NCBI RefSeq assembly: GCF_007741475.1
Contig: NZ_CP036261.1
Span: forward strand, 4,775,798-4,839,797
Direction: 5' to 3'
From: Rosistilla ulvae
Lineage (GTDB): Bacteria > Planctomycetota > Planctomycetia > Pirellulales > Pirellulaceae
DNA: 64,000 nucleotides
A program made the translations under genes and the position numbers. The notes below the pieces were generated by a model. It did not search any database, was not told where the DNA came from, and saw only the letters and a program-made list of their open reading frames with translations. Positions 33,852 to 46,101 of the stretch are shown piece after piece (position 1 is the stretch's first letter; every line of letters begins with the position of its first letter).

Positions 33852-34169
33852 GGATAAAGCCGTTCCCGGGAAAAGATAAGAAGCGGAAAAAATCGCACTC
33901 AACAATATAATGCCCCGTCACGACCGAAACAAATCGCCGCGGCGGGCCCGCAGGGCTATTCAGTGTTTCAATTTGAGGTATCAGCTTAGCGACCGGTTTA
34001 CCTGGAGAACCGGACGCTAACGCGTGGCGGCTAATTTGCCTAAGCACAAACACGGATTAGTCCTGACGAGCTTGCCGGTCGGGTGACAGCTCAGCGGGGC
34101 GTGTCATTTATAATGGCCAGTGGCTTGATGCTGGATCGCACGTTGTTTTTTTTGTGTGCCACTGGCTAT

Positions 34170-34565
34170 GCCAGTGTTCCTGCAGCGAAGCAGGGAGATT
34201 GGAATCAACAAACAAGTTCTCCAATGCCAAACGGCGAGAGTTCCGCCATCACGATCGGCGTGAGATGCCTTTGGTGCTTTGCCAGTGTTCCTGCAGCGAA
34301 GCAGAGAGATTGGAATCAACAAACAAGTTCTCCAATGCCAAACGGCGAGAGTTCCGCCATCACGATCGGCGTGAGATGCCTTTGGTGCTTCGTTTGTGGA
34401 GCACTGGCAAAGCCAGTGGCACCCAGACGCGTTGTTTTTGTGTGCCACTGGCTATGCCAGTGTTCCTGCAGCGAAGCAGAGAGATTGGAATCAACATACA
34501 GATTCTCCAATTCTAAACGGCGAGGGTTCCGCCATCACGATCGGCTGGAGATGCCTTTGGTGCTT
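34170..34565. repeat. three copies of a 111-bp repeat
   Basis: Copies lie at 34170-34280, 34281-34391 and 34456-34565. The first two are in tandem and nearly identical, and the third has diverged more. Each begins with gccagtgttcctgcagcgaag and ends with gatgcctttggtgctt. The third copy is bracketed by the inverted pair gccactggct / agccagtggc. Reading frames on both strands through the unit give low-quality Cys/His/Arg-rich peptides, so I treat it as non-coding. Confidence 0.85.
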
Positions 34566-34637
34566 CGTTTGTGGAGCACTGGCATAGCCAGTGGCACCCA
34601 GGCGGGCGAGCCCGCAGGGCGACTCAGTTCGGGCATA

Positions 34638-34721
34638 GCGTCTCCTGAAAAACCGACGCGTAAGCGAGGCATCCGTGGAAGAATCCTCGCTTACGCGTTG
34701 GGTTACCATTTCAGGAGACGC
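34638..34721. repeat. 84-bp palindrome, related to the one at 36579
   Basis: The outer arms gcgtctcctgaaa (34638-34650) and tttcaggagacgc (34709-34721) are perfect inverted repeats. Inside, gacgcgtaagcgagg pairs with cctcgcttacgcgt. The core is shared with the palindrome on the other side of the permease gene. Confidence 0.85.
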
Positions 34722-34755
34722 GCCCGTTCAAAAACGCCGCTGCCCGAAACCGAAG

Positions 34756-34771
34756 TGTTCCACGTGGAACA
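34756..34771. promoter_or_regulatory. parS centromere site (perfect palindrome)
   Basis: TGTTCCACGTGGAACA is a perfect 16-bp palindrome that matches the parS consensus TGTTNCACGTGNAACA. It lies in a gene-free stretch 52 bases beyond the permease stop and about 5 kb from parA-parB. It is a strong candidate ParB loading site. Confidence 0.8.
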
Positions 34772-34823
34772 CGTGCACAAACTCTTCCGGTTTCACACGC
34801 CTCGGTTCGGCAAACCTGAGCGA

Positions 34824-36440
34824 CTATTCCGATTCGACCTCTTCGGCGCGACTGTCCGAAGGCGCGGCGATCGTCAGCAACCAGAACGACCACGCGACCA
34901 ACAGCAGTCCGGTCACGGCGTACCCCAACGCGAACTGGCGAACCATCGCCGCCTCCGCACTCCATGGCCAATACAACGGGGAGCCGGGAACGGGGGAATG
35001 GATCACACCGAAGACCGTCAACAAACCGCAGATAAGAAACAGCCCCCCGGCTCGACGCAATCGCTGATCGATGATCGAAGCCAGTGCCGACGCCCACAGC
35101 AGACTTGTCAGAATGAATCCGTTGGAGAGGATCAGTAGCGTTTGCAGCTTGTCCCGCAACCCCGGATCGCCGAGCCCTTCGATCGAGTAGGACGGATCGC
35201 CAAAGATCTGCGAAGGAAAGCTGTTGGCTAAAAAGGCGAGGGCCGGAACGCAGGCCAAGGCGACCGCAGCGTAGTGCCGGGTGGGAGTTGCAGAGAAGCT
35301 TTGCGCGGTGATCTCCAGTCCGACAAAGATCAGGATCGGAAAGACCGCCGCTTCGGGAATGATCTGGTAGAAGTAGACGAAGTAGCCGCCGACACCCGCG
35401 GTTCCGATCAACAATGCCGTCGCCAGGGTGTACGCGCCGCGGCCGCCCATTTGCTTGTAAGCCGGATGCCCGATGTAAGGCGTCGTCTGGACCACGCCGC
35501 CGCACAGCCCAGCCGCCAAGGTCGCGATCGCTTCGACAAAGATCACCGTCCCGGTCGGGTATTCGTCTCCCGCCGCCGCGGCACTCTCGGTGCAATCGAT
35601 CCCGCCAACGACGGTTCCGATCGCGAACGGAAGGACGATCGGCATGTACTTCATCGCTTCGCTAAAGCGCTCGAGCCACTGGAACTCAAACGCTTCCAAC
35701 CACATCGTCGGGAACATCGTCGGCGTGATCGTATGCTCCCCCGACGCCACGTACCCTTCCACGCCCAACGCTCGCAACAGATAGAACATCCCGCCGGCAA
35801 CGATCAACGCGCCCAAGGTGCCGGGGACGCGAAATGGCAACGGCACGCGGCCGATCAGCGAAGTCAATACGATCGCCAAAGCGACCAAACCGACCAGCGG
35901 CGTTTTCAAGATATCCAACAATGGAAGAAAGCTGATCAGCACCAGTGCGATCGCCGCCAGCGAACCGAGCAGCCCCGCCCGCGGAACGCTTCGTCGAATC
36001 CAGCCGCTGACCGGAGAGCAGAGGACTTTAAATAGTCCACTCATCACGATCGCCCAGATCCCAATGTGCCACGCGAAACGGGCCGCTTCCATTTCGTCGA
36101 GTCCCAGCCGAACCTTGCCATCGATGAAAGCGGGACCGAGGACAAAGAAGACCATCCCGAACGTGCTGGGCGTGTCGAGCCCCAAAGGCATCGCGGTGAC
36201 GTCGCTGCGGCGAGTCCGTTTGGCCAACCAGAATGCGAGGGCGAAGAACATCAGATCGCCAACGAAGACGCCGATCGCCGTTCCGGGGACCATCGCCTGC
36301 ACGGCGACTTCGGCCGGGAACTGGAAGACGCCGGCTAACAGACTGACCACCAGGATCAGCCCCGCGACGTTATCCAACATCAAACCAAAGAAGGCGTTGA
36401 TGTCGCCTACGGCAAACCAGCGGTATCGGTCGTTGCTCAC
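34824..36440 (-). CDS. NCS2-like (xanthine/uracil-type) permease
   Basis: A 538-residue inner-membrane transporter with about 13-14 hydrophobic segments. It resembles the nucleobase-ascorbate/SulP-like fold: an N-terminal FFGLMLDNVAGLILVVSLLAG segment, a central IGTVVGGIDCTESAAAAGDEYPTG loop with acidic residues and a following GGVVQTTPYIGHPAYKQMGG segment. The substrate cannot be inferred; xanthine/uracil permease is the annotation class. The gene is flanked by related palindromes at 34638-34721 and 36579-36637, so the gene may have been moved or duplicated as a unit. Codon use looks like that of the neighbours. Confidence 0.8.
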   Translation of the reverse strand: MSNDRYRWFAVGDINAFFGLMLDNVAGLILVVSLLAGVFQFPAEVAVQAMVPGTAIGVFVGDLMFFALAFWLAKRTRRSDVTAMPLGLDTPSTFGMVFFVLGPAFIDGKVRLGLDEMEAARFAWHIGIWAIVMSGLFKVLCSPVSGWIRRSVPRAGLLGSLAAIALVLISFLPLLDILKTPLVGLVALAIVLTSLIGRVPLPFRVPGTLGALIVAGGMFYLLRALGVEGYVASGEHTITPTMFPTMWLEAFEFQWLERFSEAMKYMPIVLPFAIGTVVGGIDCTESAAAAGDEYPTGTVIFVEAIATLAAGLCGGVVQTTPYIGHPAYKQMGGRGAYTLATALLIGTAGVGGYFVYFYQIIPEAAVFPILIFVGLEITAQSFSATPTRHYAAVALACVPALAFLANSFPSQIFGDPSYSIEGLGDPGLRDKLQTLLILSNGFILTSLLWASALASIIDQRLRRAGGLFLICGLLTVFGVIHSPVPGSPLYWPWSAEAAMVRQFALGYAVTGLLLVAWSFWLLTIAAPSDSRAEEVESE

Positions 36441-36887
36441 GAGTTGAGACCTTGCGACGTGGGGAGAAAGAAGTCGCAGCTTCCGCCTAAGCTGAGCAAC
36501 TATTCGTTGGTCGTTATCGTAACGCAGTGTTCGACAATTGCCAGCATAGGCGAATCACTGTTTGAGTTTAGGCATTTTGGTAACCCGACGCGTAAGCGAG
36601 GCACCGCGTGAATTCCTCGCGTACGCGTCGGGTTACCATTTCCCGAGAGCCTCCAGTTTGGAAAAGTGATTAGCCCTAATTGCCAGCATGGGTGTTTGCA
36701 TCCTCGCTTCGATTGCTCCTACAATGTGACCAGCAACCGCAGCACCCTCTCCGCCGCTCGGCCCGATCCGCGGTCGGCGGATAGCGTGCCGCCGATCTTG
36801 TCCCCAACAATCCAATCCACTCCGCCCGCCGCGATCCGGAACGACCGGTCGCCGCCAGCGGGTGATCCAGCGGGCTCATCTACAATT
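36441..36887. other. intergenic region before the ABC operon
   Basis: The 447-base gap contains the palindrome at 36579-36637 and should hold promoters for the divergent permease and ABC operon. The frame of the first operon gene is open back to 36666, but the extra 74 residues are a Pro/Ser/Arg-rich extension that I do not accept. Confidence 0.5.
36579..36637. repeat. 59-bp palindrome, second copy
   Basis: Arms of 23 bases (36579-36601 and 36615-36637, GGTAACCCGACGCGTAAGCGAGG) pair with one mismatch around a 13-base loop. The arm core gacgcgtaagcgagg is identical to that in the palindrome at 34638-34721. Confidence 0.85.
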
Positions 36888-37178
36888 ATGGAAAACGTGG
36901 AATCCGATGGCTTGCTGCCCCGGTTCACCTTGCGGTGGTTTTCGATCGTCTTCACCCTCTCGGTTCTGGTCGCATGGATCTTCCGGCAATCGGTTCTCGG
37001 TAGCCTGTGGGCCTCGGCCGCGATGGTCACCCTGGCCGTGATGGGCGGAATGTTTGCGATCTACGCGGTCCTGTTCATGGTGATCTGGGCCCCCAACGCG
37101 TTGGCCAACTTGGGAACCTCGTCGACGCAAAGGGACGCGAATCCCACGCCCGGGAATGAACACGAGGTGAAGTCATGA
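36888..37178 (+). CDS. small two-helix membrane protein, first gene of ABC operon
   Basis: A 96-residue protein with two hydrophobic helices (about residues 17-38 and 44-70) and a polar C-terminal tail. I do not recognise a family. The start at ATG 36888 is chosen by its compact fit before the first helix. Its stop codon overlaps the next start as ATGA (37175-37178), the same junction as in the following gene pairs, so all four genes are probably translated as a coupled set. A subunit or assembly role in the exporter is inferred from the context only. Confidence 0.65.
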   Translation: MENVESDGLLPRFTLRWFSIVFTLSVLVAWIFRQSVLGSLWASAAMVTLAVMGGMFAIYAVLFMVIWAPNALANLGTSSTQRDANPTPGNEHEVKS

Positions 37179-39502
37179 TCGGTGGCCGCGGCATCCGCCG
37201 CCGATTGAGTCACCGGGCATCATCGCTGCTCGTGTTGATCGCCACCGCCTTGGCGGTCGGCACTCTGACACCCAAAGCTTCCTTTGCCGACGAATTGCTA
37301 GCAGACTTCCCCGTCGATGGCGCCAAGGGTTCGGGGATCGCATTGACGGTGACCGCGGGGGAAACCAAGCGAGTCGGAGTCTGTCCCGTGACGGTCGAAG
37401 TGCGGGCGATCGGTCCCAGTTTTGGAGCGGACCGAAAACTGACGATCGAGTTGAGACCGCGGTCGGTGCTGCCAAGTCAGAACACTTTTGATTTCCGCCA
37501 GACGATCCAATTGGGCGAATCGGACAGCATCCATCGCGAGGTGCTGGAAGTCCCGATCTATTATCCCTGGGCGCAATGCCGCGTTCGCGTTCTGGAAGAT
37601 GGAGTCGTCTTGCCGGGAGATGACAGTGACTTATCGACGCCGGTCTTTTTGACCACGGACAATATTCCCGAGTTGACGCTCACGATCATCGAAGCCCGGA
37701 CGGTCGATTCGGACCCGCCCGATTGGCAACGGTTTCCGGATTGTCGATCGTTGTGGATGGCGTCGCGTGGCGAGCGGATGCCGCCACATTATTTCCGGCC
37801 CCAGCAACTTGAACACGAAGCGGCGAAGTCGTCGATTCAGAACCCGGGGCATTCCTCGCTTGCCATCAAGACGGTGCACGAAGATCGGCTGCCCAACCGC
37901 TGGACATTATATAATGACACCGATGCCGTGATGGTGTCGGTCAAGGCGCTGCAGCGTATCAAAGAAGAGAACCCGACGGCGATGGAAGCGTTGCGTCAAT
38001 GGCTCGCGACCGGCGGCGTTCTCTGGACCTATGGTGATTCCGGCACTGCTGAATTAAACGACCTTTTCTCGTTGCCCAATGCTTGGGAGCGATTGACGGT
38101 ATCGAAGATCCAAGAAGCATCGCAATCCGGCCTCCCGCACAACCCACCTGGGATGGGACGGAACCCTGGCCCGCGGCAGCTCGAGCAACGAACCCTACCC
38201 AACGCCAGTCTGCAGCATCCTTTTTTGCTGGTTGAAGGGGCCCGTTCGGTTCAGAAAAGGGTCACGACGCATCCGTACCTGGCCGGCAAGATCGTTTGCA
38301 TCGACGATGCCTTTCCATTTCCCGGATCGGTTCAGCAATGGAGCACCATCGCCGCAGCGGCCCCGATGCAGATCGGGACCGAGAACCGACTGGGCTTCGA
38401 CATCGTTCGCGGCGACAGCAACTTCTGGACCTGGTTGATCGCCGAAGTGGGGCAGCCCCCGGTCTATACCTTCCTGGGGATGATCTCGTTGTTTGTGCTG
38501 CTGGTCGGCCCCGTTTCGTATTACGTCTTCCTGTACCTCAAGCGGCTGTATCTGTTTTTCGTCTTCGCTCCGATCGTGGCCCTGATCTGTACCGCCTCGA
38601 TTGGACTCTACGCGATGATCGCCGACGGGTTCGGCAGCCGAGTCCGGATCCGGCACCTGACGCTACTGAATGCTAGCGGCGAGGGCGTGAATTGGTCGCG
38701 ACAGACCTATTTCTCCGGACTCCGGCCGCGCGACGGCGTCGCGTGGTCGCGCGAAACAGCGGTCTACCCATTGCGAGAACCGCAGCTACCGGGGGCGCGG
38801 TCGCAAGAGAATGATGATCCGGGAGCCGCGCAGGTCGTGATCGATGGCGACGCACTCCGGCTGCAAGGGACGTTCATGCCGTCGCGCACCCAATCGCAAT
38901 TCGTCGCGATCACGCCTCAAATGGATTGCGGAGCAGTCGTCGCCCGTCGCGGCAAAGGGATCGTCCGCGTCGAAAACCAAACCCGACACCCCATCGCATC
39001 GATCCTCTTGGCGGACGCTAGCAAACGCATTTGGTTCGCCGAAGCGATCGACGCCGGGAGTGCAGCCGACGCGGTCGCGATGTTGCCAGTCGATGCGGCG
39101 CGCTGGATGACGACCAACTTTTTGGACCACGCGCCGGAACTGCCGGCCGGGTATCAAGACGCATCGCAAAGCGAACTGCTTCGATTGGGAAACATGCGGC
39201 GGCTTCGAAACACGAGCGGACCACGGTCATTCACCACCGCCAACGTGGGTGGGCTGGTCGAAGCGATGTTCCGGAGCACGATGGTTGAACAGGGTACGCC
39301 GCCGGCGAACCATTTTGTCGCCATGGCGGAAGTTCCCGCCGACGCGATCGGGATCGAAGGTGCCAAGCCGGTCGAATGCATTCACTTGATGATGGGCGAG
39401 CTTCGATTCGTCGGCGACCCCGATCCGGTTTCCCAAAGCGGTGCCCCAGCCGACGAAGATACTTCGGTGACGAAAGACGAAACTGCGGAGAGCGCCGAAT
39501 GA
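37175..39502 (+). CDS. large membrane-anchored extracytoplasmic protein of ABC operon
   Basis: A 775-residue protein of unknown family. A signal or anchor lies at about residues 14-38, followed by about 385 residues of predicted periplasmic beta-rich domain. Two strong membrane helices follow at about 428-485 (TFLGMISLFVLLVGPVSYYVF and YLFFVFAPIVALICTASIGLYAM), then about 290 more residues ending in an acidic tail. The topology recalls GldG-like partners of ABC-2 exporters. It overlaps both neighbours by ATGA junctions, so it very probably works with the ATPase and permease downstream. Confidence 0.7.
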   Translation: MIGGRGIRRRLSHRASSLLVLIATALAVGTLTPKASFADELLADFPVDGAKGSGIALTVTAGETKRVGVCPVTVEVRAIGPSFGADRKLTIELRPRSVLPSQNTFDFRQTIQLGESDSIHREVLEVPIYYPWAQCRVRVLEDGVVLPGDDSDLSTPVFLTTDNIPELTLTIIEARTVDSDPPDWQRFPDCRSLWMASRGERMPPHYFRPQQLEHEAAKSSIQNPGHSSLAIKTVHEDRLPNRWTLYNDTDAVMVSVKALQRIKEENPTAMEALRQWLATGGVLWTYGDSGTAELNDLFSLPNAWERLTVSKIQEASQSGLPHNPPGMGRNPGPRQLEQRTLPNASLQHPFLLVEGARSVQKRVTTHPYLAGKIVCIDDAFPFPGSVQQWSTIAAAAPMQIGTENRLGFDIVRGDSNFWTWLIAEVGQPPVYTFLGMISLFVLLVGPVSYYVFLYLKRLYLFFVFAPIVALICTASIGLYAMIADGFGSRVRIRHLTLLNASGEGVNWSRQTYFSGLRPRDGVAWSRETAVYPLREPQLPGARSQENDDPGAAQVVIDGDALRLQGTFMPSRTQSQFVAITPQMDCGAVVARRGKGIVRVENQTRHPIASILLADASKRIWFAEAIDAGSAADAVAMLPVDAARWMTTNFLDHAPELPAGYQDASQSELLRLGNMRRLRNTSGPRSFTTANVGGLVEAMFRSTMVEQGTPPANHFVAMAEVPADAIGIEGAKPVECIHLMMGELRFVGDPDPVSQSGAPADEDTSVTKDETAESAE

Positions 39503-40452
39503 TTCCCTACCATAGCGACGATTCGGTGATCGAACTGCGGCGGCTGCACCGCAACTTTGGCAAGACCCGCGCGGTCGACGATGTTTCGTTCAGCGTTCCC
39601 CGTGGAACGGTGTTCGGTTACATCGGCCCCAACGGCGCGGGGAAGACGACAAGCATGCGGATCTTGGCGACGCTCGAATTGCCGACATTGGGGGATGCTT
39701 ACGTCGACGGTTTTTCAGTCGTCAACGATCCCGATCACGTTCGCCGTCGATTGGGTTTCATGCCCGACGCCTTTGGAACCTACCCGAGTGTGAACTGTCA
39801 CGAATACATCGACTTCTACGCGCGGGCCTATGGACTGGCCGGGCGCCAGCGGCACCAACGGGTCCGCTGGGTGATGGACTTCACGCGATTGGACGGCATC
39901 GCGGAGAAACCGATCCGCGGACTCAGCAAAGGGATGAAACAGCGGCTGTGTCTGGGGCGCGCTCTGGTTCACGATCCGGCGGTTCTGATCCTCGACGAAC
40001 CGGCGGCCGGTTTGGACCCTCGGGCGCGGATCGAATTGCGAAGGATGATCCGGGCGCTCGCCGAAGATGGCAAAACCGTTTTGGTCAGCAGCCACATTCT
40101 GACCGAGCTAGCCGAGATGTGCGATCGGGTCGGGATTATCGAACAGGGTCGTCTGTTGGCGACCGGCAGCGTCGATGAGATCCAGCGCCAGCAGCGCACG
40201 CATCGCGAGTTTGTCGTTCGCGTGATCGACCATCGCGACACGGCGGTTCAAATGCTGGAGAGCAACGATCATGTCAGCCACTTGATCGTCGATGGAGAAT
40301 TGGTCCGGTTCCAATACGAAGGGGATGTCACTCACCAGGCGACGCTGCTCGCTTCGTTGATCGCCGCGGGGGTGAGTGTCGCGGAATTTTCATCGCACGC
40401 CCGATCGCTGGAAGATGTCTTCATGCAAGTTACCGAAGGGTTGGTGCAATGA
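39499..40452 (+). CDS. ABC transporter ATP-binding protein
   Basis: A 317-residue cytoplasmic ATPase of the ABC-2 exporter type (ABCA/GldA-like). Walker A is GPNGAGKTTS (about residue 40), the signature reads LSKGMKQR, Walker B LILDEPAAGLDP, and the switch histidine lies in SSHILTEL. A C-terminal domain of about 90 residues follows the nucleotide-binding domain. ATG 39499 overlaps the preceding stop as ATGA; the open frame to 39376 is an Arg-rich artefact. The next gene encodes the permease, again with an ATGA junction. Confidence 0.92.
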   Translation: MIPYHSDDSVIELRRLHRNFGKTRAVDDVSFSVPRGTVFGYIGPNGAGKTTSMRILATLELPTLGDAYVDGFSVVNDPDHVRRRLGFMPDAFGTYPSVNCHEYIDFYARAYGLAGRQRHQRVRWVMDFTRLDGIAEKPIRGLSKGMKQRLCLGRALVHDPAVLILDEPAAGLDPRARIELRRMIRALAEDGKTVLVSSHILTELAEMCDRVGIIEQGRLLATGSVDEIQRQQRTHREFVVRVIDHRDTAVQMLESNDHVSHLIVDGELVRFQYEGDVTHQATLLASLIAAGVSVAEFSSHARSLEDVFMQVTEGLVQ

Positions 40453-42089
40453 GTCAGGAAGCGACGCAACCGACGACCGCGGAAGCTCCGCTGTGGATCC
40501 AACGCATCGATGCGTTCTTCGATCGCGCGGGGGATTGGTGCAATCCGATCCTTGTCAAAGAAGCGCGGCAGGCGCTAAAGAGTCGTCAATTTATCTGGAC
40601 CTTCGCCGTGCTGTTGCTTGGCGCCTGGATCTGGTCGTTCGCCGGTACGCTGTTGATGATGCCGGGGATCTATTATGTTCCCGGCGGCCGCGCGATGCTG
40701 ATGGGATACTACTGGGTCCTGGCGGTGCCGATGATGTTGGTCGCGCCGATGGCGGCCAATCGATCGTTGGTGGCTGAGCGCGAGGACGGCACGTACGAAG
40801 TCCTGTCGATCACGACACTCTCGTCCTACCAGATCATCCTAGGCAAACTGGCCAGTTCCGTGCTGCAGTTGGTGATCTACTTTACCGCGCTGGTTCCGTG
40901 TGTTGCCTTCACCTACATCTTGCGCGGGATCGACCTGCCCAGCATTGCGCTCTTGATCGCGTCGACCTTTCTGACGTCGGTCTTTATGGTCGTCGTTGGG
41001 CTGTTCCTCGCATCGATCTCCAACACGCGATCGTTGCAATCGCTGCTGATGATCGGAATGCTGTTGTTGGTTCTGTTGGCGGAATACCTGCACGGTGCTT
41101 TTGCGATGACTTTGATGACATCGGGAATTCGCAGCGACGACAGCGAACTGCTGGTACTATTGCTAGCGATCCTTACGCTCTACCTGGGCGTTTCGATTTT
41201 CTTGATCGTCGCGTCAGCCGCCGCCTTGTCGCCGGTCAGCGAGAATCGATCGACGCGATTGCGGATCATGATGCTGGTGCTGCAAGCGGTGGCCATTTTC
41301 TGGGCACTTTATTTGCTCATGTATTCCGCGGAGCTGGGCGTCCGTTTTTCGCGCAGCATGTTCTACGACTTCTTTCCGGGCCGCGGAACAGGCATCGTCA
41401 TCCTCGTGCTATCGGCTTTCTACTGGATCGCGATGGGCGGATTGATGTTGGGTGAATCGGAGACATTGTCGGCGCGGGTTCGACGCGGGCTCCCCAAAAC
41501 CTTTCTCGGTCGCGTTCTGTTAACCTGGCTGAATCCTGGTCCGGGCACCGGCATGGTCTTCGCCATCTCCAGCTTCGCTGGCATCGTCGCCGCGATCTAT
41601 GCGTTGGAAGCCTCGGGCGTGATCAATCGCGTCGCGAACAACCAGTCGATCGTTCCGCTCGGGCTGACCCTGTTGGGTTACATGATGTTCTTTCTCGGGA
41701 TCACGCACTTATTGGTCTCGATGGTCCGCGGCAAAGGAAGCGTCACGCCGTTTGTGTCGCTTGTCGCCACGCTGTTGATGATGTCGCTGGGCTGTATCAT
41801 CCCCTATTCGATCGGGCTGTACGTGAACAACTTTCGCAGCTTCACCTGGGACGAAACCCAGATCACCAATTGGGCTTGGACGCTGCGACAGTTCGCCAAT
41901 GGTGCCGCTGCGGTATCGATCCCATGGATGGTCCTGACGATGGGATTGCTGGCGGTTGCCGCGAATCTACTTTACGTCGGACGCGACGTGATGGTCCGCC
42001 GCGTCTCGACACCGCAGCGCGTGCTGGATGAACTGGCAGCGCTGAATCCACTGCCCGAAAGCGAAACGTCGAGCGATCCGTTGGCGTAA
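40449..42089 (+). CDS. ABC-2 type transporter permease
   Basis: A 546-residue membrane protein with about 12 hydrophobic helices. The N-terminus has the LVKEARQALKSRQFIWTF motif and the ERE-like segment RSLVAEREDGTYEVLSITTLSSYQIILGK, which are typical of ABC-2 permeases that contact the ATPase. It is twice the usual six-helix length, suggesting that both half-membrane domains are fused. It ends the four-gene operon. The exported substrate is unknown. Confidence 0.88.
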   Translation: MSQEATQPTTAEAPLWIQRIDAFFDRAGDWCNPILVKEARQALKSRQFIWTFAVLLLGAWIWSFAGTLLMMPGIYYVPGGRAMLMGYYWVLAVPMMLVAPMAANRSLVAEREDGTYEVLSITTLSSYQIILGKLASSVLQLVIYFTALVPCVAFTYILRGIDLPSIALLIASTFLTSVFMVVVGLFLASISNTRSLQSLLMIGMLLLVLLAEYLHGAFAMTLMTSGIRSDDSELLVLLLAILTLYLGVSIFLIVASAAALSPVSENRSTRLRIMMLVLQAVAIFWALYLLMYSAELGVRFSRSMFYDFFPGRGTGIVILVLSAFYWIAMGGLMLGESETLSARVRRGLPKTFLGRVLLTWLNPGPGTGMVFAISSFAGIVAAIYALEASGVINRVANNQSIVPLGLTLLGYMMFFLGITHLLVSMVRGKGSVTPFVSLVATLLMMSLGCIIPYSIGLYVNNFRSFTWDETQITNWAWTLRQFANGAAAVSIPWMVLTMGLLAVAANLLYVGRDVMVRRVSTPQRVLDELAALNPLPESETSSDPLA

Positions 42090-42173
42090 CCCAGCCGCGA
42101 CCGATTTGATTTCTACAGCGATCGACCAAGAGACGGAATCATCCAACGCAACAAAGGTTTCCGATCGCCAAGG

Positions 42174-43787
42174 TCATTTGTCGGCGTCGGGTTGCGAGGG
42201 AGGGTTATCGCGTGGCACACCGACTGCTCGCGGCCCTCGACGATCGCCGGGACGGTTGTCGCCGCGCGGCGGACCACCACCTCGCTTTCCGTTTTCGAAA
42301 CCTGGCGGATCGAAACCGGGACCGCGCCCCTCGGGGCCTCGGCGATCACCGCCACGCCCTTCGCCGCCGCGACCATCCCAAGGCCGAAAGCCCGATCGAC
42401 CGCCGCCGCGACTGCGCAGCGCTTTGAGCGCTTCGTTGGGATCGCTCAGATCGATCCGTTCGCGAAGCATCGCATCGGCCGATTCGTAGGCATCCAACGG
42501 ACTGTTGCCCGAGCCATCGATCGGCGAACGTTTCCAAGCCGCAAACATCGTCCAGTAGAACAACCGATTGGATTGGTCCCCGGAGTCTTGAACATTCTGC
42601 AGGAATTGAGTCGCTTTGGCGCTAAGCGATTGGCGGACCAACTTCTTCTCTTCCGCCGTTACCGGTCTCACCTTCCCCCACCAACCGTCGGTCGAACTGC
42701 CCCTTCGCATCGCTGGAAGGACATACAACTTGACCAAAATGTGCGCCATCACCTCGTCGGCGTTTAACGACAATTCCTTACTGACGGTTTCCGCGCGCCG
42801 CTGCAACGTCGCATACGCTTCGCCCGAAAGTGCGTCTGGCAATTCGTCGACCCGCGACTGGGCGATTTTGAATAGCGCTGCATACAGCTGGTCGAGATCC
42901 TCTGCCGTCAGTTGTTCATGATCCCCACGACGGGTCTCTTGAATCGTGGCGGTGACCAATCGCAAACGTTCGGTGGCAGCGGCCGATTGCAACTCCGTCT
43001 GCTTTGGGGGCGAAAGTGTATCGAGCCAATCGACGTAACTGACCAACGTTTCGGTCAATCGATCGGCATCGTCGCGAGCTTCGATCTGCCGCACATAATC
43101 CTTCAACTCCGTTTGCCGTTGGAGTGGCTGAGCGACCAATTGTTCGTACTGCAATTGCAGATCCCGTTTCAAATCGGCGGGCATCTCTGCCAACTGAGTC
43201 GTCCGCTCTGGTTCGGCAACCGCCGCCAACCGCCCCTCGACGCTGCGAACTGGCAATTCCTCCAGATCACGGCTGATCGAAATATGCTCTTGCCACGCGG
43301 GCTGTTCGGCCAGCGAGGCGAAAAATTTCAAATCCGAATCGCTCTTGATCTGCGAATAGGCGCGTAGATGCTCCGCGACCGCCAGTCCTTCAACAAGTTC
43401 GCGTTGCTGTTCTTGTTGGTAACCGCGAACGATCACGCCCCCAACGATGAACGTGACCGCGGTGGTGAACAAGAGACCAACCGCTGCGGCGGATAGTTTC
43501 CAGGGGCGACGTTGTTTGACGATTTCAAACTCTTGCGATGCGCTGACCGCAATCATCTCGACGGTGGTGCGAGCAAAATCGTTATTGACCGTCGTGCGTG
43601 GCAGTTCGTCCAGCATGTCGAACGTTTGCTGCAGCGATCGCAAGCGCCGTTTGCAATCGGGATCTTCCATCAAACGTTCTTCGAGCGCAGCCCGTTGGTC
43701 ATCTTCGAGTTCACCGTCGAGATAGGCAACCAATTGTTCGTCGAGGTCGCTGGGCGAACCGTCGTCGATCGGGCGTGTTGCTTCCAT
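42174..43787 (-). CDS. anti-sigma factor-like membrane protein with Gly/Arg-rich tail
   Basis: A 537-residue protein. Residues about 12-70 (LDEQLVAYLDGELEDDQRAALEERLMEDPDCKRRL) match the N-terminal domain of ECF anti-sigma factors, but the His-x3-Cys-x2-Cys zinc site is absent. A single membrane helix lies near residues 93-117. A long alpha-helical extracytoplasmic part follows, and the final 75 residues are Gly/Arg/Pro/Asp-rich and low in complexity. It lies 135 bases after the sigma factor gene on the same strand and probably binds that sigma factor. ATG 43787 removes a 21-residue extension. Confidence 0.82.
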   Translation of the reverse strand: MEATRPIDDGSPSDLDEQLVAYLDGELEDDQRAALEERLMEDPDCKRRLRSLQQTFDMLDELPRTTVNNDFARTTVEMIAVSASQEFEIVKQRRPWKLSAAAVGLLFTTAVTFIVGGVIVRGYQQEQQRELVEGLAVAEHLRAYSQIKSDSDLKFFASLAEQPAWQEHISISRDLEELPVRSVEGRLAAVAEPERTTQLAEMPADLKRDLQLQYEQLVAQPLQRQTELKDYVRQIEARDDADRLTETLVSYVDWLDTLSPPKQTELQSAAATERLRLVTATIQETRRGDHEQLTAEDLDQLYAALFKIAQSRVDELPDALSGEAYATLQRRAETVSKELSLNADEVMAHILVKLYVLPAMRRGSSTDGWWGKVRPVTAEEKKLVRQSLSAKATQFLQNVQDSGDQSNRLFYWTMFAAWKRSPIDGSGNSPLDAYESADAMLRERIDLSDPNEALKALRSRGGGRSGFRPWDGRGGEGRGGDRRGPEGRGPGFDPPGFENGKRGGGPPRGDNRPGDRRGPRAVGVPRDNPPSQPDADK

Positions 43788-43862
43788 GATTCCACTTACA
43801 TTAAAAAGGCCGCGATGTCGCCGCGCTATCGCAGATCGCGCGGCGTTCAATCGCTCGTGATT

Positions 43863-43899
43863 GTTCCACGGAAACTGTACCGACGCGGCGCCGTGGAAC
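43863..43899. promoter_or_regulatory. 9-bp inverted repeat between sigma and anti-sigma genes
   Basis: GTTCCACGG (43863-43871) and CCGTGGAAC (43891-43899) form a perfect 9-bp stem with a 19-base loop in the 135-base spacer. It may attenuate transcription or adjust the sigma to anti-sigma ratio; no T-run follows. Confidence 0.4.
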
Positions 43900-43922
43900 G
43901 CGCGACGCGGTCGAGCCCCGAA

Positions 43923-44591
43923 TTACGTGGGGTCTTCGGTTTTATTGGCGGTCGCCAAATTGGAACCCTGATTCACATAGGGCTCCAGAATTTCTTTCAG
44001 GTTCACCCGCGCTCGCGACAATAAACTTTTGACCGCTTGCGGAGTCATCTTCATGACGTCGGCGATCTCCGCATAACTCAGTTCTTCGAACCGGCTCAAC
44101 CATAGCGCCATCCGTTGGCGTTCGTTTAATTCTTGAATCGCCATCCGAACGATCTCGGCCCTTTCCAAGCCTTCGATCTGACGAGCGGGCATTTGGCCGC
44201 TGGCAGCCAACGCCAACGATTCCAACGTCGCATCGCTTTCGGTGTCATTGCGGCGTGGCGCGTCGGTGGCGCGAACCTCGCGCCGTCGACTCGCCGAACG
44301 AAGCGAGTTTTTCGCGACGTTCCCCGCAATCGTAAACAGCCAAGTGGAAAACTTGGCTCCCGGTTCGTAACTCTTGCGAGCTCGGTAGACTCGCATAAAA
44401 ACGTCTTGTGCCAAGTCTTCGGCCATGTCACGGCGGGGTGCCAAGTGTTCCAACAACTGCACCAAACGGTTCTGATATCGGTGTACTAACTCTTCGAATG
44501 CGGTGGCGTCATCGTTGCGTACGCGCAGCATCAAACGGACATCGGGGTCCAATTGTTGATAACGCAACGCGGTCGATGGGCTAACGGGCAA
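43923..44591 (-). CDS. ECF-type RNA polymerase sigma factor
   Basis: A 222-residue sigma-70 family factor. Region 2 spans about residues 25-95 (DDATAFEELVHRYQNRLVQLLEHL...AEDLAQDVFMRVYRA...FSTWLFTIAGNVAKN) and region 4 about 150-205 (LNERQRMALWLSRFEELSYAEIADVMKMTPQAVKSLLSRARVNLKE). Regions 1.1 and 3 are absent. The frame begins with TTG at 44591, with GAAGGA about 11 bases upstream; an ATG at codon 21 is also possible. The anti-sigma gene follows, so activity is probably controlled by that membrane protein. The inducing signal is unknown. Confidence 0.88.
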   Translation of the reverse strand: MPVSPSTALRYQQLDPDVRLMLRVRNDDATAFEELVHRYQNRLVQLLEHLAPRRDMAEDLAQDVFMRVYRARKSYEPGAKFSTWLFTIAGNVAKNSLRSASRRREVRATDAPRRNDTESDATLESLALAASGQMPARQIEGLERAEIVRMAIQELNERQRMALWLSRFEELSYAEIADVMKMTPQAVKSLLSRARVNLKEILEPYVNQGSNLATANKTEDPT

Positions 44592-45018
44592 AGTCGAATC
44601 GTCCTTCGGCTTAAGGAATTAGAACTTGCGATATTCGGGCCTCAGGTGGTCGCCAGAATCCGCAGAATGTGCTGCCGTTCAGTCTAGCGCACGACCGCTG
44701 CGGAAACTACGTCACCCAGAAACTTTAAACCGACAAGATCCGACAAAGTTTCGCGGAAAATTGATCGCCCTTGGGCGTCGACGATTCACAAAGGAAATAC
44801 CGCACGCCCCGCTCAACGGGCGCGGTTGACGCAAAACCCGACAAGCTTGCCGCCCCGCCGAAACTTCCCATCGCCGCTAGGGTTTCTATTGCCATGCGTT
44901 GACGGCGCAAATAATCCCCGCAAAGATGGGGGCTCAGGAGCGGAGGGCGTTCGGAACGGCGATTTTACATCGACGTGTCCACGCCAACCGGTGAACGATC
45001 GCGTGAAGGAAGGATAGA
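44592..45018. other. divergent intergenic region
   Basis: This 427-base gap separates the divergent sigma factor gene and the 360-residue membrane protein gene. A strong ribosome-binding site (GAAGGAAGGA) lies just before 45019. No supported gene, terminator or repeat was found. Confidence 0.5.
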
Positions 45019-46101
45019 ATGATTTTACGAACGGTGATCTTGTATTCGGCCATCATTTGCGCTCCGTTTTCCGCGCTGGCAGAGCCCAAACCGGAGATGA
45101 GCGTTGCCAGTCGACAGCCGACCGACTCGCATCGCGATTCGATCAGAGAACGCCCCTTGCATTTCGATCAAGAATCTCGAGTCACCCGAATCGAGAAGGG
45201 GTATCTGTTTGTCGATGGCGAGCGAATCGCCTGGCCCTTTGAAATCACCTCCACCCCAAACACCGATCACCTGTCGGTCAACGGCTACAAGATTTGGGTT
45301 GGGACCAGTCAGACATCCCGCCCCCGTGGACGCAACGACAATCCCTCGCGTCAATTCCGCAACAACCGCTATCTTCAACGACACGTTGTCGAATCATTGC
45401 GCGGCAATCGAGCGGTCTTCGCCTTCAGCGATAGCCCGGCGGTGATTCTGAATGAAAATGTATTTTGCGCAAACCTGTTGAAGTTCGATCGCGAATCGGA
45501 ACCCTATCAGGAACTCCAGGATTCGATCGCCGATCAAGAACAACTACAGTCGATGGAAGCATGGTTCACCAGCTACACGCCATCACAAGATCTGATCGAC
45601 GCGGCAACCGTCGTCGTGGAACGCTACGAACGCGCCAATCAAATCAACCGCGCCCAAGTCAGTGCCGCCACAGCATTGAACCAGTTGACGTATCCGATGA
45701 CGATGTTTGGCTTGATGGTAGGCGTCTACGCGTTTGGACACCTGATGATGACCACGCCCAAGACGCCTGCGTTATTCCCCGAGGCAAATCTGTTGGACGT
45801 GATGTCGCGCGCGACGGTCATTTCGGTCGCGTTGATCTGCGCCCACGCTTCGCTTGATCTCGTCTGGACGCTACTGACATCTCGAGCCGGACAGATGCGA
45901 GAGATCAATCCCGTCGGCGCCCAATTCGTCGATTCCCCGGCGGCGCTGATCGCCTTCAAAGCCACCGTCACGCTGGGCGCCTGCGGGCTGTTGATTGGAT
46001 TGCGGAAACACCGCTTCGCGCAAACGGCGTGTTGGTGGATGTGCCTCGTCTGCACGATCCTCACCTTCCGTTGGCTGATCTTCAGCTCGATGCTGGTTTG
46101 A
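45019..46101 (+). CDS. membrane protein of unknown function, DUF5658-like C-terminus
   Basis: A 360-residue protein with a signal peptide (residues 1-21, ILYSAIICAPFSALA), an extracytoplasmic domain to about residue 220, and four or five hydrophobic helices in the last 140 residues. The helix pair around LDLVWTLLTSRAGQMREINPVGAQFV resembles the 'D-x-x-x-T ... E-x-N-P' pattern of DUF5658-type membrane domains; this is a by-eye match. GAAGGAAGGA before the ATG supports the start. It converges with the acyltransferase gene. No function is proposed. Confidence 0.65.
   Translation: MILRTVILYSAIICAPFSALAEPKPEMSVASRQPTDSHRDSIRERPLHFDQESRVTRIEKGYLFVDGERIAWPFEITSTPNTDHLSVNGYKIWVGTSQTSRPRGRNDNPSRQFRNNRYLQRHVVESLRGNRAVFAFSDSPAVILNENVFCANLLKFDRESEPYQELQDSIADQEQLQSMEAWFTSYTPSQDLIDAATVVVERYERANQINRAQVSAATALNQLTYPMTMFGLMVGVYAFGHLMMTTPKTPALFPEANLLDVMSRATVISVALICAHASLDLVWTLLTSRAGQMREINPVGAQFVDSPAALIAFKATVTLGACGLLIGLRKHRFAQTACWWMCLVCTILTFRWLIFSSMLV

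Follow-up and report, generated by a model that had tools for sequence, protein, structure and literature searches.

An ABC-2 operon of Rosistilla ulvae with a GIFT-type subunit and MoxR-linked relatives: a possible envelope export or extraction machine

MoxR–vWA systems occur widely, often without a known client. The closest published idea that we found for the operon described here is the archaeal arCOG01314 (DUF4350) complex, in which, as far as the available excerpts of the source go (PMC5898192), a GldG-like, membrane-anchored protein of flavodoxin fold is encoded together with a MoxR-family AAA+ ATPase, vWA proteins and Ig-like proteins. The same excerpts predict an archaeal secretion or membrane-remodelling complex and name the β-galactosidase trimerisation domain as a fold relative, as is also the case for M775, the 775-residue protein of our operon. 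No ABC ATPase or ABC-2 permease is described in them; the MoxR-linked planctomycete operons presented below add an ABC motor to that set. In a further difference from the archaeal complex, the planctomycete form found in the order Pirellulales has no adjoining MoxR and vWA genes. GldA–GldF–GldG of the Bacteroidota also offers a likeness, i.e., an ABC ATPase, an ABC-2-type permease and a GIFT-type outer domain. GIFT domains take their name from GldG and IFT52 and have been proposed to bind sugars (PMC7226087, in excerpt). MoxR–DUF58–BatA (Bat) operons, lastly, enclose relatives of our operon outside the order, whereas the R. ulvae operon lacks these genes. In the open-licence PMC literature, we found no description combining MoxR, DUF58, BatA and an ABC transporter, and no paper combining three of five COG numbers.

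The window, i.e., the whole stretch of R. ulvae DNA that was analysed, is 64,000 nucleotides long. The operon and its neighbours, which on both sides lie on the opposite strand, are as follows:

36888..37178, plus strand: S96, 96 aa, with two hydrophobic segments (open reading frame listing, sequence)
37175..37178, plus strand: ATGA overlap of S96 and M775 (sequence)
37175..39502, plus strand: M775, 775 aa, with a signal/anchor helix, an Ig-like domain, a GIFT/ThuA-like domain, a transmembrane hairpin and a β-rich C-terminal domain (open reading frame listing)
39499..39502, plus strand: ATGA overlap of M775 and the ATPase (sequence)
39499..40452, plus strand: ABC ATPase, 317 aa, of the DrrA/GldA-like class, with a DrrA1-3_C domain (PF00005, PF13732)
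40449..40452, plus strand: ATGA overlap of the ATPase and the permease (sequence)
40449..42089, plus strand: ABC-2 type permease, 546 aa, with about 12 hydrophobic segments and an N-terminal half weakly like GldF (weak TIGR03518 match)
34824-36440, minus strand: membrane protein of 538 aa, with no Pfam or NCBIfam match over cut-off
42174-44591, minus strand: ECF sigma factor and, after it, an anti-sigma-like protein of 558 aa whose start resembles zf-HC2; convergent with the operon

The sequence thus agrees with the initial annotation, which had placed four open reading frames and three consecutive ATGA junctions here. For the ATPase, the start is taken as the ATG within the overlap, at 39499. 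The ORF caller prefers an upstream ATG at 39376; we chose the 317-aa form because several homologues align from its residue 1. Rfam gave no match within 34000-45100 at gathering scores, and scans for promoters and terminators gave about as many hits as chance would (2 where the mean was 1.9, and 8 where it was 6.0). A palindromic REP-like element lies at 36578-36638 and at 34650-34708; its 20-nt core has 43 matches in the R. ulvae genome with at most one mismatch, and the reversed control has 0. Upstream of the end of the 538-aa gene, a 154-nt direct repeat occurs three times within 34165-34604, and inverted repeats lie among the copies.

The operon is conserved. With M775 as the query, 150 of 199 same-family genomes (Pirellulaceae, f1) match at E 1e-3 or better; named relatives are Rhodopirellula, Rubripirellula, Neorhodopirellula and Aporhodopirellula. 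A profile of the M775 family, here called M, finds matches in 105 of 146 same-order genomes and in 123 of 294 genomes of the phylum, many of them weak and covering only the GIFT-type or hairpin region. Gene order was followed by profile search in 60 deduplicated same-family loci, i.e., the R. ulvae operon, 40 hand-picked best matches (L033-L072) and 19 named loci obtained by scanning with Rhodopirellula-type seed sequences. Fifteen loci were excluded as second copies of the same place (L073-L078, L080-L082, L085, L088, L090, L095, L099 and L102), and several of the 60 are paired within one genome (G000, G028, G137, G178) and so are not independent. M homologues do not mostly occur apart from ABC genes, the outcome that would have spoken against the initial annotation: the ATPase follows M in 59 of the 60 loci, the exception being L070. 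(In L037 the M gene has an internal stop, and its two pieces matched apart.) S96 lies just upstream of M in 55 loci and is missing in five. The permease is found in 47, three times more than 1 kb downstream; at the other 13 there is none in the fetched stretch, some stretches ending at contig ends. Linkage of the permease to M–ATPase is therefore not strict. At L101:11230-13148 and comparable loci of Rhodopirellula type, the ATPase and permease are separated by other genes. The R. ulvae genome has a second complete copy of the operon (L033, at about C1:2097644-2102728), with junctions GTGA, ATGA and ATGA.

What happens where the genes are unlinked? Six genomes were followed: in five, M–ATPase has no permease next to it, and in G019 no ABC gene adjoins M. 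All six have a permease orthologue (38-41% identity) elsewhere in the genome. In G019 it directly follows an orthologous ATPase, away from M; the match in G140 has one internal stop. Among genomes without an M match, 18 of 20 have no clear permease, i.e., weaker matches or none. These 20 are the first of 49 listed, their M-less status coming from a single-sequence search, and two of them, G010 and G031, give weak M profile matches. G063 (82% complete) has a clear permease, and G016 a weak 139-aa match. This co-retention, together with the conserved order, is the best evidence from sequence that the operon proteins would act jointly. The dedicated complex proposed in the initial annotation gains support from conserved order, from retention when unlinked and from mostly shared absence, and quite probably the operon proteins do form one.

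The junctions themselves are also conserved. In-frame NTGA overlaps (ATGA, GTGA or TTGA) occur at 40 of 55 same-family junctions between the small gene and M (25 ATGA), at 51 of 59 between M and ATPase (46 ATGA) and at 34 of 47 between ATPase and permease (31 ATGA). Where all three junctions are measurable, all three overlap in 18 of 38 loci and all three are ATGA in 11 of 38, including the R. ulvae operon. The control, a rough one based on crude ORF calls, gave overlaps in 4 of 35 flanking same-strand gene pairs and in 0 of 9 such pairs with homology support. Because orthologous junctions keep the in-frame overlap, the ATGA overlaps are not due to chance. Between M and ATPase, the overlap is rare in the other families of the order (3 of 20). 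The overlaps are thus frequent without being indispensable, and what they suggest is coupled translation, not stoichiometry; the tight stoichiometry that had been read from the ATGA junctions does not follow from them. The purine-rich stretches seen directly 5′ of each internal start, GAGGTG, GGAG and GAAGG, are as would be expected for coupled re-initiation.

S96 has a PR-F-S/T-x-R motif before its first hydrophobic segment. Among 20 loci from the order's other families, 19 have it immediately before M; in the twentieth (L172:2245-4887, in a fragmented assembly), S96-like and M-like parts share one 881-codon open frame, which would be either a natural fusion or an assembly error. The ATPase matches PF00005 (90.9 bits) and PF13732 (35.6 bits), both over cut-off, and Walker A, Walker B, signature and H-loop are all present in 91 of 93 ATPase homologues of the fetched loci, the remaining two being fragments of 145 and 179 aa. 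The permease matches ABC2_membrane_3 below cut-off (E 0.0038; 16.8 bits against 31.6) and has a conserved N-terminal block comprising N32, P33, K37, E38, R40, Q41, E110, G132 and K133. It had been called double-length, which is right as to length; no tandem duplication or internal repeat was detected by hhalign at four cut points (probability <1%).

M775 has no Pfam or NCBIfam family above cut-off, and its description as a protein of unknown family holds for these two collections. Its AlphaFold model (22 sequences, mean pLDDT 67.6, pTM 0.71) begins with an N-terminal helix and divides as follows, the domain models being of moderate confidence:

37295..37639, plus strand: Ig-like (β-sandwich) domain, residues 41-155 (model strands; GH2/arrestin-like VIA matches with a middling Z of about 7)
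37667..38374, plus strand: GIFT/ThuA/GH42-trimerisation-like α/β domain, residues 165-400 (VIA, Z up to 9.8 both for the whole model and for the isolated domain)
38462..38626, plus strand: transmembrane hairpin, residues 430-484 (model helices 430-454 and 458-484)
38636..39409, plus strand: β-rich C-terminal domain, residues 488-745 (model; weak mu-homology-domain-like matches, Z about 7)

Folded alone, the α/β domain reaches a pLDDT of 67.7, again moderate confidence. VIA aligns it with ThuA-like 1t0b (Z 9.8, 3.9 Å, 164 residues), GH42 5xb7 (Z 9.1, 3.6 Å, 145 residues) and two structures of IFT52, 5fmr (Z 8.8, 9.8 Å, 153 residues) and 5fms (Z 8.4, 4.2 Å, 155 residues). Foldseek scores for the domain alone are low (best E 4.1e-4), with catalases beside GH42 and ThuA-type matches. 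The models thus suggest a domain of the GIFT-type superfamily at the level of fold, such folds being common. Brr2 helicases, the top Foldseek PDB matches of the whole model, have TM-scores of 0.10-0.13 and were dismissed as meaningless. Catalytic GATase activity of the GIFT-type domain was considered and rejected: the two cysteines that M775 has there stand in columns where the top residue reaches only 0.39 and 0.28. DUF4350 (PF14258) matches 2 of 36 M family members, at best with E 0.055, and is not reported for M775. The hairpin is the best conserved part of M, with a mean top-residue fraction of 0.60; together with its flanks (401-531) it stands at 0.55-0.60, against 0.30-0.36 for the Ig, GIFT and C-terminal domains. 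Since the hairpin and flanks are far better conserved than the outer domains, this pattern points to a fixed membrane partner.

Outside the order, M, ATPase and permease sit inside MoxR–M–ATPase–permease–DUF58–BatA operons. The gene order that the initial annotation proposed to look for across planctomycetes is kept in family and order; beyond the order, the sequence of M, ATPase and permease is kept within MoxR operons. The search was phylum-wide within Planctomycetota, and loci were picked by M similarity alone: 32 genomes outside the family gave E 1e-19 or better, of which 31 loci were used, the 32nd (L079) being cut before M. Weaker matches, mostly in the GIFT-type region only, were set aside except for L122-L124 (see below). 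In 29 of the 31 (14/14 and 15/17), the first recognised gene upstream of M is MoxR; in several of the loci the N-terminus of M is unmatched and the gap separating the MoxR match from the M match reaches about 1.2 kb. Two loci have no MoxR: L223, which stops just short of M, and L225, a true exception that has M and ATPase. In all of the first 14 loci the ATPase follows M; tblastn also detects the permease in 10 of them and DUF58 and BatA in 11 each, two of the BatA genes lying on the opposite strand. The 17 further loci, several of which are short contigs, have the ATPase after M in all 17, the permease in 12, DUF58 in 10 and BatA in 7 (one on the other strand). Pfam confirms MoxR (PF07726), DUF58 (PF01882) and BatA (PF07584) at L113. 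The M proteins from 8 of the first 14 MoxR-linked operons and those from the Pirellulaceae form one family (hhalign E 5.1e-62). The initial annotation spoke of unrecognised partners; these are recognisable once such relatives are seen.

The Pirellulales loci differ on both counts. By profile search, S96 is absent from MoxR-type loci (0 of 15, one of them cut before M, and 0 of 17 further loci). Conversely, open reading frames and Pfam reveal no MoxR, DUF58 or BatA beside the R. ulvae operon, and there is none in the 20 loci of the order's other families, 17 of which show at least 2 kb upstream of M. Among the 60 same-family loci (57 with at least 2 kb upstream), only L071 has MoxR, downstream of the ATPase; L039 and L040 have weak MoxR-like matches several kb upstream (52-55 bits, 30% over 172 aa), which we judged unrelated. 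Elsewhere, the R. ulvae genome has 13 above-cut-off matches to DUF58 and several MoxR genes that resemble the linked MoxR less closely, but no close BatA (best match to the L109 BatA, E 8.3e-6); a search with the DUF4175-like protein of L109, run without a positive control, found no match in it.

The ATPase and M trees, both of which have long branches, agree: MoxR-linked forms make up a paraphyletic grade, and the MoxR-less forms are nested within it as one group. In both, the sister of the MoxR-less clade consists of two MoxR-linked loci of another family of the same class (f3). The sister relation and the MoxR-less clade have supports of 99/85 and 100/99 in the ATPase tree, which leaves out the order's other families and in which one inner branch of the grade is weak (82/63), and SH-aLRT values, the sole support measure there, of 95 and 96 in the M tree, a quick search that includes those families. 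Given this topology and the contexts of the loci, a single loss of the MoxR linkage together with a single gain of S96 would explain the data best. On balance, we lean towards seeing in the R. ulvae operon the detached core of a MoxR/vWA-linked ABC machine. A second, unnamed family is also at hand: at L122:4984-8370, L123:7066-10512 and L124:5127-8368, a GIFT/hairpin protein of the 780-aa type (782 aa) adjoins an ABC ATPase. It is homologous to M over the GIFT, hairpin and C-terminal parts (hhalign E 2.8e-13) but forms a separate clade in the ATPase tree, and these stretches hold no permease matching the profile of the M-operon permease.

Could the operon be a planctomycete GldAFG, i.e., a transporter associated with gliding or type 9 secretion, the kind of system to which the initial annotation had likened its layout? 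The general layout does agree, the ATPase scores 225.5 bits with TIGR03522 GldA and the N-terminal half of the permease weakly resembles GldF (TIGR03518, E 1.3e-4, 22.1 bits), but both scores lie below the curated cut-offs of 402.6 and 288.5 bits, the second far below, and many unrelated ABC ATPase models score well on the ATPase too (192 families). Kinship fails at M as well: no PF09822 match is listed for M775 up to an E of 1, or for any of 36 family members up to an E of 0.5, and hhalign of the M family with 15 PF09822/GldG-type proteins gives a probability of 1.2%. In the planctomycete operon, the GIFT-type part belongs to a distinct subunit, which has a hairpin and a C-terminal domain of its own. 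A separate GldG-type operon, with an ABC ATPase, a 971-aa PF09822 protein and a 601-aa protein, is present in the R. ulvae genome (L207:5297-10955, G000:C1:2351296-2356954), and PF09822 is found in 58 of 60 same-family genomes. We therefore rejected membership in GldAFG and regard this reading as very unlikely. A DrrAB-like exporter of drugs or antibiotics, for which the ATPase's 250 bits with TIGR01188 drrA (cut-off 312.45) and its above-cut-off DrrA1-3_C domain would speak, is improbable too: a conserved M, S96 and MoxR/BatA-linked relatives do not fit a simple efflux pair, and DrrAB is not known to have a large outer subunit.

That these are neighbouring genes only, with M775 working with other partners and the operon a convenience, could be argued from the genomes in which M and the ABC genes are unlinked; the permease persists in every one of the six followed and is mostly missing where M is, and gene order is kept within the order and outside it, which makes this the hardest account to credit. 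More serious, albeit rather unlikely, is that nothing is transported and that the ABC part drives shape changes of M775, which would help envelope proteins on the outer side, as a chaperone or assembly factor. The hairpin and flanks, as the most conserved part of M, would suit such mechanotransmission; against it, MacB and LolCDE, its models, are structurally of another type than ABC-2 permeases. The excerpted sources describe mechanotransmission for MacB and LolCDE (PMC10094684) and call MoxR–vWA partners, which the relatives' operons hold, chaperones (PMC7159879). Mechanotransmission and export are not separable by sequence data.

Our preferred reading, to which we give a probability of roughly 0.55, is a MoxR-detached inner-membrane ABC-2 machine for envelope export or extraction. 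An ATPase pair, the large permease, M775 and S96 would make up one machine, M775 being its obligatory extracytoplasmic subunit, held by the transmembrane hairpin, and S96 a small accessory membrane protein. The older operon would have been DUF4175-like–MoxR–M–ATPase–permease–DUF58–BatA, and the operon here its ABC core. Detachment from MoxR, DUF58 and BatA probably took place once, at or near the base of Pirellulales, S96 taking the front position in the Pirellulales form. ATP binding would close the ATPase pair and move the permease; the hairpin of M would pass this motion to the Ig, GIFT-type and C-terminal domains, which would bind an envelope component and then release it or pull it out. 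Judged from the parts, export or extraction as the function is about an even bet. The candidate cargo is a glycoconjugate or surface protein bound by the GIFT-type and β-sandwich domains; that the substrate contains sugar is a doubtful, tentative suggestion drawn from those same parts.

More speculatively, this may be a bacterial machine for envelope export that the literature covered here does not describe. A GIFT-type subunit would connect a MoxR AAA+/vWA system with an ABC-2 transporter, making the whole a bacterial counterpart of the arCOG01314 complex with an ABC motor to supply the energy. If so, Pirellulales, with neither MoxR nor vWA in the operon, would be a natural experiment separating the motor from the assembly factors. 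Time and again, a MoxR–DUF58–BatA operon surrounds one and the same ABC machine, and a candidate client is thereby named. Because one order has retained this machine while losing the MoxR side from its operon, cultured planctomycetes offer a way to test what each half does. The system links a predicted archaeal secretion complex, GIFT-type domains and ABC transport.
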